From: Prochlorococcus sp. AG-363-O16
GTDB taxonomy: Bacteria; Cyanobacteriota; Cyanobacteriia; PCC-6307; Cyanobiaceae
Direction of reading: 5' to 3'
DNA length: 64,000 nucleotides
NCBI GenBank assembly: GCA_003280095.1
Contig: QCGA01000001.1
Location: forward strand, 1 to 64,000
Shown: in pieces, positions 43,240-46,947 of the stretch
Layout of the letters: every line of letters begins with the position of its first letter
Position numbering within the stretch: the stretch's first letter is position 1
The notes under the pieces: model-generated
The model's input: only the letters and a program-made list of their open reading frames with translations
The model's database searches: none
Told to the model about the DNA's origin: nothing
Position numbers and translations under genes: made by a program

Positions 43240-43923
43240 TCAATTAAATCGCTTGGCCAATGCGACGGGATCCAATACAGTAATTTTCTTACGGTCAATC
43301 TGAACAAGACCAGCATTCTTAAGGTCCCCTAATAAGCGAGTGATAGTTACACGAGTTGAGCCTATAGCTTCTGCTATGGATTGATGTGACAAGCGCAGAT
43401 CAATAGTTATACCTTTGTCATCTGGTACACCGAAATCTCTACACAAAACCAACAGAAAACTAACAAGTCTTGATGACATATCCCTATGAGTAAGAGTTTC
43501 AATCATGGTTTCAGTCTGCAAAATCCTGCTCGACAATCCTTGAAGTAAAAGCAACCCAACCGATGGATCTGACTCAATGGCCTGCCTAACTGAAGTCGCA
43601 GGCGCTGTAAACATCTCCACGCGAGTAAAAGCCACTGCGTGATAAAAGCGATCTGAACGATGTCCAGTCAACAAAGAAAGCACTCCAAAAAGACTGTTTT
43701 CTCTTAACAAAGCAACGGTTATTTCCTCACCCGACTCGTAAACCCTCGACAACCTTACGGCTCCTCGCCTTATTAAATAAACCTTTTCAGCAGGGTCCCC
43801 TGGGAAGAAAATATTTTTTGCCCTATCGACTAACTCAGTGCTAGCTCCATCTAATCCACGGAGCACATCCGAAAGACTGTGATTACCAAGATTGGTTCTA
43901 GACACTGAATGACTTACTGACAC
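43240..43923 (-). CDS. ntcA: Global nitrogen regulator NtcA
   Basis: CRP/FNR-family activator that senses 2-oxoglutarate (with PipX) and controls nitrogen genes. The 227-aa protein has a cyclic-nucleotide-fold effector domain (about residues 30-145; [35 protein letters not shown]) and a C-terminal winged helix with [28 protein letters not shown] (about 172-200), the exact recognition helix of NtcA. I see no GTA-N8-TAC box in its short upstream region. One likely target, amt, is 15 kb away in this window. Confidence 0.98.
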
Positions 43924-44045: not shown

Positions 44046-44780
44046 TTACTCTTGCTCCTTTAATGCTGTCAATTGAGCCACATGAAGTCTTCTTAGCCCA
44101 GATTCAGCTATATCGAGAAGAATATTCAATTGGTTTCTACTAAAAGGAGCTCTCTCCGCAGTGCCCTGGAGTTCCAATAACCGATCATCGGAGGCCATTA
44201 CAACATTTAAATCAACATCTGCAACCGAGTCCTCGCTGTAATCAAGGTCCAAAAGAGGCACACCATGAACCAATCCCACCGAAACAGCTGCAACTTGAGA
44301 GATCAAAGGGTTTCTTTTTAAAGACCCTTTAACGACTAACCGATCAAATGCTTTGTCCAAAGCAACCCAAGCACCAGTAATAGAAGCCGTCCTTGTTCCA
44401 GCATCAGCTTGGATAACATCACAATCAACAATCACTGTCTTTTCACCCAATAGAGAAAAGTCAATAGCAGCCCTAAGACTTCGACCAATCAGTCGCTGAA
44501 TTTCCTGAGTTCGTCCTGAAAGTTTTAACATCTCCCTCTCTTGCCGGCGAGGAGTAGAGCCAGGGAGGAGACGGTATTCAGCACTTAACCAACCTTGGCC
44601 AGAGCCTTTCCGCCATCCAGGGACATCATCTTCTATTGAAACAGCACAAAGCACAGAGGTCCGACCTGTTCGCCATATCAAAGAACTAAGAGCAAAACAC
44701 ATTGGATCCCATTGGACTTCAAACGGTCTAAGTACATCTGCACTGCGACCTCCATCTCTCTGAATTGGAGAATTAAACAT
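44046..44780 (-). CDS. rph: Ribonuclease PH
   Basis: Phosphorolytic 3' exoribonuclease that trims tRNA ends. The 244-aa protein has the RPFEVQWDP opening, [29 protein letters not shown] (catalytic region), [16 protein letters not shown] and [20 protein letters not shown], all hallmarks of RNase PH. It is divergent from the CobO-like gene. Confidence 0.96.
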   Translation of the reverse strand: [244 protein letters not shown]

Positions 44781-44929: not shown

Positions 44930-45559
44930 ATGACAGCAAGCTTTAAAGCCACTACAAATTCATTTCATCAATCTACGGATGATCCTGGGACAGTTCAACA
45001 TTCGCCTGCTGCGTTAAGAGCTGTCCATTCAGCTATTCCAAAATCACCATTACACCTTGTCTCGCCAGAAGGTCGGCTACAAATTCATACTGCTCCATAC
45101 AGAGGAAGCTTCTCAACAGTTCTTAGCGAGGCAATAAGAGCTGCGGGCTTAGGAAGTCGAGTAGTAGTTGCACAGTTCCTCAGAGGAGGGGTTAATCAAG
45201 GTCCTAGTGGATCTGTTCAACTATGCGGTCGACTCGAGTGGTTGCGTCCAGCAATACAAACCTGCATAACTCACGCCCTAAAAGAAACGTCATCAGATCC
45301 AACTATTCAGGAGTCCTTGGCAGCCGTTAATTCAATCTGGGAAGTTTGTCTAAACCATCTAATCGAAGAGGATCTAGACCATCTAGTCCTCGACGAAATA
45401 GGTCTGGCAATTTCACTTGGTTATCTCAACGAAAACGAAGTAATAGCTAGCCTCGAAAATAGACCAGAAACAATGGATGTCATTTTGACGGGTCCGTCAA
45501 TTCCTCCTGGCCTTAACTCGATTGCAGACCAAGTCACCGAATTGCGCTGTGGGTTCTAA
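44930..45559 (+). CDS. CobO-like protein with degenerate P-loop (cob(I)alamin adenosyltransferase family)
   Basis: Resembles ATP:corrinoid adenosyltransferase BtuR/CobO in overall plan (209 aa): an N-terminal beta strand and loop GRLQIHTAPYRGSFST, then GLGSRVVVAQFLRGG, a Walker B-like LDHLVLDEIGLA, and the C-terminal EVIASLENRPETMDVILTGPSIPPGL...ADQVTEL. In functional CobO the loop reads GNGKGKTT; here Lys and the following Thr are absent. ATP binding is therefore doubtful, and it may have a changed or regulatory role. Its stop overlaps the dcd ATG in TAATG. Confidence 0.7.
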   Translation: MTASFKATTNSFHQSTDDPGTVQHSPAALRAVHSAIPKSPLHLVSPEGRLQIHTAPYRGSFSTVLSEAIRAAGLGSRVVVAQFLRGGVNQGPSGSVQLCGRLEWLRPAIQTCITHALKETSSDPTIQESLAAVNSIWEVCLNHLIEEDLDHLVLDEIGLAISLGYLNENEVIASLENRPETMDVILTGPSIPPGLNSIADQVTELRCGF

Positions 45560-46152
45560 TGCTTAAAAACGACCGTTGGATTACAGAACAAGCAAAAGCT
45601 GGCATGCTTGAGCCTTTTCAAGAAGGGCTTGTCCGCCACCTAGAACCCGAAGAATCGCTGAGACCTGTGCTCAGCTTCGGTTGCTCTTCTTATGGCTACG
45701 ACCTTCGTCTGTCCCCAAAGGAATTTCTCATCTTCAAACATGTTCCTGGAACAGTAATGAACCCGAAAAGGTTTAATCCACAGAACCTCGAACCCACATC
45801 TTTACACAAAGATGAAGATGGAGATTACTTCATACTTCCAGCACACTCCTACGGACTCGGAGTAGCACTAGAAAAAATGAAAGTCCCACCCAATATCACA
45901 GTTATATGCCTTGGGAAAAGTACATATGCCAGGCTCGGAATAATCGTAAATACAACACCTGCAGAAGCCAGTTGGGAAGGTCATTTGACACTTGAATTCA
46001 GCAATAGTTCTGGAGCAGATTGTCGAATCTATGCAAATGAAGGAATTTGCCAACTCTTATTTTTCGAAGGAGACCCTTGTGAAACAACTTACAGTGATCG
46101 TGAGGGAAAGTATCAACATCAGCCTGAAAAAGTAACCTTGGCGAGAATCTAA
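45559..46152 (+). CDS. dcd: dCTP deaminase
   Basis: Converts dCTP to dUTP, the route to thymidylate in many bacteria. The motif VICLGKSTYARLGIIVNTTPAEASWEGHLTLEFSN is diagnostic, with the N-terminal SFGCSSYGYDLRLSPKEF. The protein is 197 aa. The ATG overlaps the CobO-like stop by one base, so expression is coupled. thyX follows after 126 nt, completing a dCTP-to-dTMP segment. Confidence 0.96.
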   Translation: MLKNDRWITEQAKAGMLEPFQEGLVRHLEPEESLRPVLSFGCSSYGYDLRLSPKEFLIFKHVPGTVMNPKRFNPQNLEPTSLHKDEDGDYFILPAHSYGLGVALEKMKVPPNITVICLGKSTYARLGIIVNTTPAEASWEGHLTLEFSNSSGADCRIYANEGICQLLFFEGDPCETTYSDREGKYQHQPEKVTLARI

Positions 46153-46278: not shown

Positions 46279-46947
46279 ATGTTAGAAATAGCAAGAAAAA
46301 TGAGTCAAGTTGAACTGGTTGCATCGACTCCAAAAGCAGAGCAAACTATGGCTTATATAGCCAGGGTAAGCAATCCAAACAATCAACATAATAATGATTT
46401 CTCTGGTTTACTTGGATATTGCATTAAGCATGAGCATTGGAGTGTTTTCGAGCAAGCCTTCATGACGCTTCAAATAGAAACGAACAGAGGAATTGCCGCA
46501 CAAATACTCCGCCACAGATCATTCACATTCCAAGAGTTTTCTCAACGCTATGCAGAAAGCACACAACTTGGTACTATTCCCCTCCCCGAGCTTAGAAGAC
46601 AAGACCTAAAAAATAGACAAAATTCAACTAGCGATTTGCCCTCCGAAATTAAAGAAAAATACCTAAAAAGAATCAAATCTCAGTTTGAACAAACACTAAA
46701 ACTTTATGACGAGATGATCAAGGATGGAATAGCCAAAGAATGTGCACGTTTCGTCCTTCCAATTGCAACTCCTACTCGAATTTATATGACTGGATCGTGT
46801 AGATCATGGATCCACTACATCAATCTCCGTACAGGTCATGGAACACAAAAAGAACACATAGAAATAGCAAATCAATGCAAAAGAATTTTCTGCAGTATAT
46901 TTCCAATTGTTTCAGGATCACTTGGTTGGGGTGGGCAAGAAAAATAG
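46279..46947 (+). CDS. thyX: Flavin-dependent thymidylate synthase
   Basis: Makes dTMP from dUMP using methylene-THF, FAD and NADPH, replacing ThyA. The signature RHRx7S is present as RHRSFTFQEFS, followed by QRYAE. The C-terminal TGSCRSWIHYINLRTGHGTQKEHIEIA is also conserved. ATG 46279 gives 222 aa; ATG 46300 (MSQVELV) is a plausible alternative. It is convergent with the thioredoxin gene, 20 nt apart. Confidence 0.97.
   Translation: MLEIARKMSQVELVASTPKAEQTMAYIARVSNPNNQHNNDFSGLLGYCIKHEHWSVFEQAFMTLQIETNRGIAAQILRHRSFTFQEFSQRYAESTQLGTIPLPELRRQDLKNRQNSTSDLPSEIKEKYLKRIKSQFEQTLKLYDEMIKDGIAKECARFVLPIATPTRIYMTGSCRSWIHYINLRTGHGTQKEHIEIANQCKRIFCSIFPIVSGSLGWGGQEK

Follow-up and report, generated by a model that had tools for sequence, protein, structure and literature searches.

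A CobO-like protein without a P-loop accompanies the class II, adenosylcobalamin-dependent ribonucleotide reductase through the Cyanobacteriia. This association is the main new result of the present analysis; the link to the B12-dependent reductase had been noted earlier, in a first-pass annotation of the DNA, only as a suspicion. It is now backed by a phylogenetic profile, in which a class II enzyme was found in 223 of 225 genomes with the gene and class I genomes were without it. Because the paralog is missing where the reductase needs no B12, it probably serves the B12-dependent enzyme as a hitherto overlooked helper, and a functional tie between the two is quite likely.

The gene and its altered nucleotide-binding loop

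The gene lies in a 64,000-nucleotide stretch of DNA (the window) from a Prochlorococcus assembly (G000) that is 64% complete. The features considered here are the following.

43240..43923, minus strand: ntcA, global nitrogen regulator (TIGR03697, 365 bits); divergent, context only
44046..44780, minus strand: rph, ribonuclease PH (TIGR01966, 308 bits); divergent neighbour, context only
44930..45559, plus strand: P-loop-less CobO paralog (PRK07414-like), 209 aa; open reading frame, PF02572, with NF005648 as the best NCBIfam model
45559..46152, plus strand: dcd, dCTP deaminase (TIGR02274, 115.8 bits against a cut-off of 92.8)
46279..46947, plus strand: thyX, FAD-dependent thymidylate synthase (TIGR02170, 174.5 bits against a cut-off of 87.9)

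The order originally described, with the CobO-like gene followed by dcd and then thyX, is confirmed by the positions of the reading frames and by TIGR02274 and TIGR02170. The reported overlap of the stop codon with the dcd start amounts to one shared base: within the junction TAATG, the TAA of the paralog occupies 45557-45559 and the ATG of dcd 45559-45561. A scan for promoters and terminators gave no signal above shuffles. The neighbouring rph is retained beside the P-loop-less gene in many relatives.

The kinship with CobO claimed for the 209-aa product is borne out by both its profile and its predicted fold. PF02572 (CobA_CobO_BtuR), its sole Pfam match, is found with 84.5 bits (cut-off 25.7; E 1.3e-23). 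Of the NCBIfam models, NF005648 (PRK07414, named "P-loop NTPase family protein") scores highest, its 151.7 bits falling short of the cut-off of 248; the window protein is the picocyanobacterial ortholog of PRK07414 and belongs to the same clade, in which picocyanobacterial members diverge and fall below this cut-off while other members pass it. The cobA models of NCBIfam give about half the NF005648 score, and the equivalog cut-off of TIGR00708 (cobA) is missed (76.6 versus 167.75 bits). An AlphaFold2 model built from 81 sequences (pLDDT 80.1, pTM 0.72; residues 1-24 below pLDDT 50), of the kind that the first-pass annotation had proposed as a check, matches CobA best: Foldseek returns the CobA structures 4hut/1g64 at E about 1e-7, and VIA places Salmonella CobA as the top PDB match (Z 17.4) with RecA as the next fold (11.4). 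Neither an alignment nor a structure that refutes the likeness to CobO was found. Judged by profile and model, the product is homologous to the ATP:corrinoid adenosyltransferase CobA/CobO.

What has changed within this fold can be seen when the protein is aligned with Salmonella CobA, canonical cyanobacterial CobO, and both domains of PRK07413. Residues 54-62, TAPYRGSFS, align with CobA TGNGKGKTT, so that the Walker lysine is replaced by S60, the preceding lysine by R58, and the first glycine by A55. The loss of GNGKGKTT had been reported for the window protein, and as originally put it was understated, since the change is class-wide: the GxGKGKTT loop is replaced in all 58 cyanobacterial orthologs aligned across the class, each with an arginine at the R58 site. 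Among 81 picocyanobacterial rows, none has a lysine at the Walker position, and R58 is invariant. The 58 orthologs rule out that the P-loop was lost recently or locally, and the 81 rows rule out a sequencing error.

The differences from the CobA/CobO/BtuR proteins (PF02572; Salmonella CobA 1g5r, 1g64, 4hut) extend beyond the loop. In CobA, F91 and W93 of the GFTW motif serve corrinoid handling (four-coordinate cob(II)alamin); GFTW is missing from the paralog, where T111 and I113 align with these residues. The TGRG site is TGP or another residue in the P-loop-less family, and the C-terminal KAQxGIEF tail is missing, the window protein stopping just past TELR; both TGRG and the tail are intact in canonical cyanobacterial CobO. 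Common to the two groups are the LDE motif, the VxQFxxGG strand, and a conserved helix tryptophan (W137 in the paralog), and the earlier statement that the Walker B-like and C-terminal parts remain is in keeping with the presence of LDE and of the domain's C-terminal part. The motifs of the paralog lie at 82-91 (QFLRGG/QG), 102-106 (LxWxR), 137 (W), and 154-156 (LDE). Alignments of 28 and 81 sequences give R58, Q82, G87, Q90, G91, W104, R106, W137, and E156 as invariant; R58, the QG at 90-91, and R106 are new relative to CobA/CobO/BtuR. In all, 32 columns are invariant among the 81 picocyanobacterial sequences, and a lysine or arginine after QFL is conserved in the P-loop-less family.

These comparisons point to a protein that is CobO-like in fold and descent, while lacking the features on which the use of ATP by CobO depends. 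The contrary reading, that it remains catalytic, with a reconstructed ATP site in which R58 and the conserved lysine/arginine after QFL hold the phosphates, could draw on the invariance of R58 at the old P-loop and on the intact LDE motif. However, the Walker lysine, the Mg-binding threonine, the glycines, GFTW, and TGRG were lost together, and intact paralogs are present, and such a catalyst is very unlikely.

Clade, selection, and relatives

In a tree of 20 rows the P-loop-less orthologs form a single clade with support of 100/100, apart from CobO and PRK07413. All 60 relatives searched give some match, although the match in one (G057) reaches only E 2.4e-5, and that genome was later scored as lacking the gene. 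Between close relatives dN/dS has a median of 0.114 and a maximum of 0.263 (140 pairs), indicating purifying selection. The loss of the catalytic loop might be taken as a sign that the gene is decaying into a pseudogene or is an artefact of annotation, but a dN/dS of about 0.11 contradicts this, and with the 32 invariant columns and the presence of the gene in 225 of 242 genomes the chance of either is next to nil.

The typical cyanobacterial set consists of three relatives: ordinary CobO, the two-domain adenosyltransferase PRK07413 (NF005647), and the P-loop-less paralog. PRK07413 belongs to the same superfamily as the paralog, and both are absent from class I genomes, but PRK07413 has two intact GEGKGKS loops, falls in a separate clade, and lies at a different locus. 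An intact copy is present in the source genome (C3:79983-81077; NF005647, 772 bits; two GEGKGKS loops). The first-pass annotation had suggested looking for an intact CobO or PduO, and PRK07413 is thus the intact relative at hand; a PduO-type enzyme is ruled out, PF01923 having 0 matches in the source genome, and a canonical CobO was not found there, which could be explained by the incomplete (64%) assembly.

Other origins of the altered loop were considered. A loss shared with the Vampirovibrionia is ruled out, because the CobO-type proteins read from that group, like those from a second lineage of the phylum, retain the P-loop (GxGKGK[TS]). (In one Vampirovibrionia genome of family f43, within the same phylum and outside the class, two P-loop-intact CobO-type genes lie about 8 kb apart, at L156:2032-2736 and L156:10714-11250.) A phage origin is likewise ruled out, since matches in the phage collection were limited to distant CobO relatives, in 5 records. 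Cyanophage P-SS2 carries a cobO gene, according to the excerpt of the report available (PMC2784084); this gene (L163:1506-2540) encodes a two-domain protein of the PRK07413 type in which the N-domain has diverged strongly. Being of the PRK07413 kind, it was rejected as a source and says little about the P-loop-less gene.

Taken together, the alignments and the tree suggest that the paralog is ancient, probably non-catalytic, and found in the Cyanobacteriia. The NCBI name of NF005648 is a misnomer: it claims a P-loop, which is missing from every member read, and it states no function. Literature searches brought up no paper under the name PRK07414 and, among the titles found, none on the paralog-dcd gene pair.

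Linkage with dcd and association with reductase class

The coupling of the gene to dcd, described at first for the window, is conserved in relatives. In 36 of 37 loci of the same family dcd lies directly downstream, the exception (L038) ending at the end of its contig. At 80 picocyanobacterial loci the junction is an overlap of one base in 46, abuts in 27, and has a gap of 1-33 bases in 4, with the dcd start not found in the other 3; the junction is operon-like. Outside the family but within the class, dcd comes immediately after the gene, on the same strand, in 12 of 21 loci. The same holds for 81 of 108 other cyanobacterial genomes (those with places listed for both gene and dcd, the family f1 genomes being outside the count), and this arrangement is seen in members of 14 of 18 families. 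The adjacency of thyX is seen in the window and holds in part among relatives: of the 30 family loci L001-L030, 20 have thyX after dcd.

The linkage is not an obligatory one. Several genomes with the gene give no match to dcd (for example G038, G043, G125, G147, and G148), and dcd is retained in class I genomes without the P-loop-less gene. As part of the class keeps the gene where the dcd match is absent or weak, a direct partnership between dcd and the paralog is improbable. In family f23 most genomes match dCTP deaminase very weakly (E about 1e-7), and their dUMP route may differ.

These same observations bear on the proposal that the protein is a nucleotide-sensing regulator, its pocket binding a (deoxy)nucleotide without MgATP chemistry and tuning Dcd or NrdJ. 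Dcd and NrdJ lie on one route, CTP to dCTP to dUMP to dTMP, the downstream positions of dcd and of thyX fit such a role, and the predicted fold also resembles RecA and thymidine kinase. The regulator is nonetheless unlikely, in view of the lineages that keep the gene with no or weak dcd match, the class I genomes that keep dcd without it, and the loss of the phosphate-binding loop.

The profile that ties the gene to reductase class was drawn from 242 genomes of Cyanobacteriia. The gene was scored as present when the best match to NF005648 had an E below 1e-30, a value that falls in a clear gap within the class, between <=1e-36 on one side and 1e-16 to 1e-22 or worse on the other. Matches in Vampirovibrionia family f43 range from about 1e-25 to 1e-31; this family was counted as lacking the gene, because the four best-scoring copies read retain the P-loop. 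A class II reductase was called from the RTPR model (E below 1e-20), with NrdJ_Z as the other class II type, and the search for class I covered 33 + 16 genomes rather than all 242. By these measures, the 223 class II enzymes of the gene-positive genomes comprise 209 of the RTPR type and 14 of the NrdJ_Z type, and in the latter the places matched by the class I model score higher with NrdJ_Z. The two remaining gene-positive genomes, G000 and G062, are incomplete or contaminated assemblies in which no reductase was found. The control genome, of Synechococcus elongatus, scores positive for the gene as well as for the class II reductase. (Many cyanobacterial NrdJ frames are 1,000-1,600 aa long and match the model in pieces, as inteins would give, for example G053:C1:1049439-1053659, 1482 aa, and G048:C1:4163667-4167842, 1601 aa; some class I NrdA frames, in G179 and G326, are similar.)

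The gene is absent from 17 genomes. Ten of these have a class I NrdA above the cut-off (G057, G206, G096, G238, G249, G271, G179, G186, G255, and G220), and six have a class II reductase (G103, G121, G131, G172, G251, and G254). G103, G251, and G254 are also without dcd, so that a gap or a joint loss at the locus is possible; G121 is a single contig. G121 and G131, both of family f33, have a class II reductase and yet at most one CobO-family match. The last of the 17, G165, is a single contig of 3.8 Mb with no match to RTPR, NrdJ_Z, or NrdE/NrdA, and with dcd and three CobO-family matches.

In a separate sample of the phylum, for which the prediction was set beforehand, all seven further gene-lacking genomes proved to have class I, and none of nine gene-positive controls gave a class I match. 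Ordinary CobO is the only CobO-family match in those seven, and in nine class I genomes read it retains GKGKT and GFTW. Since class I genomes often keep ordinary CobO, the P-loop-less gene follows the B12-dependent reductase and not B12 synthesis. For gene versus reductase class Fisher's P is 6e-14 over the typed genomes, three genomes without a class II typing being set aside; it carries no correction for kinship, and it overstates independence to the extent that the class I families may represent a single lineage or a few, possibly the product of a single switch. To count switches from class II to class I, trees of dcd and of CobO were built, which lacked resolution or were not tree-like.

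Published statements, taken from excerpts of the papers, appear to fit the profile. Some endosymbionts and their close relatives are described as differing from most cyanobacteria in having a reductase that needs no cobamide, with MetH and QueG retained, and Synechococcus PCC 7002 as a pseudocobalamin auxotroph (PMC12903740). Synechocystis is credited with an NrdA/NrdF reductase and a potential CobO (PMC7133116). Further excerpts credit cyanobacteria with two B12 enzymes, NrdJ and MetH, and assign the cyanosiphovirus reductases of one clade to class I (PMC6370689), and give NrdJ as the protein with the strongest oscillation in Prochlorococcus MED4 (PMC3430701).

A candidate accessory of the class II reductase

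PRK07413 is also lost in class I genomes (0-1 CobO-family matches), and the profile by itself therefore does not set the P-loop-less protein apart. This parallel loss leaves room for a partnership with PRK07413, in which the paralog would pair with PRK07413 or CobO as a pseudo-subunit that regulates or scaffolds the adenosyltransferase complex; CobA itself functions as a dimer. Such a pairing is decidedly unlikely, since five genomes without the paralog keep three other CobO-family matches (CobO and PRK07413-type), and no operon shared with PRK07413 or CobO was seen.

The reading we prefer, at a little under an even chance, is that the paralog would be a non-catalytic, corrinoid-handling accessory of the class II reductase. 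It would have lost the synthesis of adenosylcorrinoid, leaving that chemistry to PRK07413/CobO, and could hold a (pseudo)corrinoid in the remaining pocket (R58, Q82, W104, R106, W137, and E156), passing it to or from NrdJ for loading, protection, or repair. Co-transcription with dcd/thyX would match the supply of this factor to the demand for deoxynucleotides. The more specific form of this reading, that a dead adenosyltransferase came to serve the class II enzyme as its dedicated cofactor chaperone or repair factor and was lost on the swap to class I, is possible and is put forward tentatively. The six class II genomes without the gene count against the accessory reading, the absence of equivalents of F91 and W93 weakens the claim of corrinoid binding, and nrdJ was not seen beside the P-loop-less gene.

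A precedent is provided by human ATR (MMAB), an adenosyltransferase of the PduO type whose fold is unrelated to that of CobA. As proposed for the accessory, this adenosyltransferase also hands cofactor to a target enzyme, giving AdoCbl directly to its mutase in the manner of a chaperone, as stated in the excerpt available (PMC8633584). It differs in being catalytically active and in having methylmalonyl-CoA mutase as its target. Literature searches, mostly of titles and listings, brought up no cofactor chaperone or repair factor for a class II reductase.

Most cyanobacteria, Prochlorococcus included, rely on the B12-dependent reductase for their DNA precursors, and we know of no route by which the scarce B12 cofactor gets to the class II enzyme and remains on it. 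A near-universal protein that tracks this reductase, and that is misannotated as an adenosyltransferase or a P-loop NTPase, is a concrete target for a knock-out. In addition, surveys that infer B12 capacity from cyanobacterial genomes and metagenomes may count P-loop-less genes as cobO by mistake.
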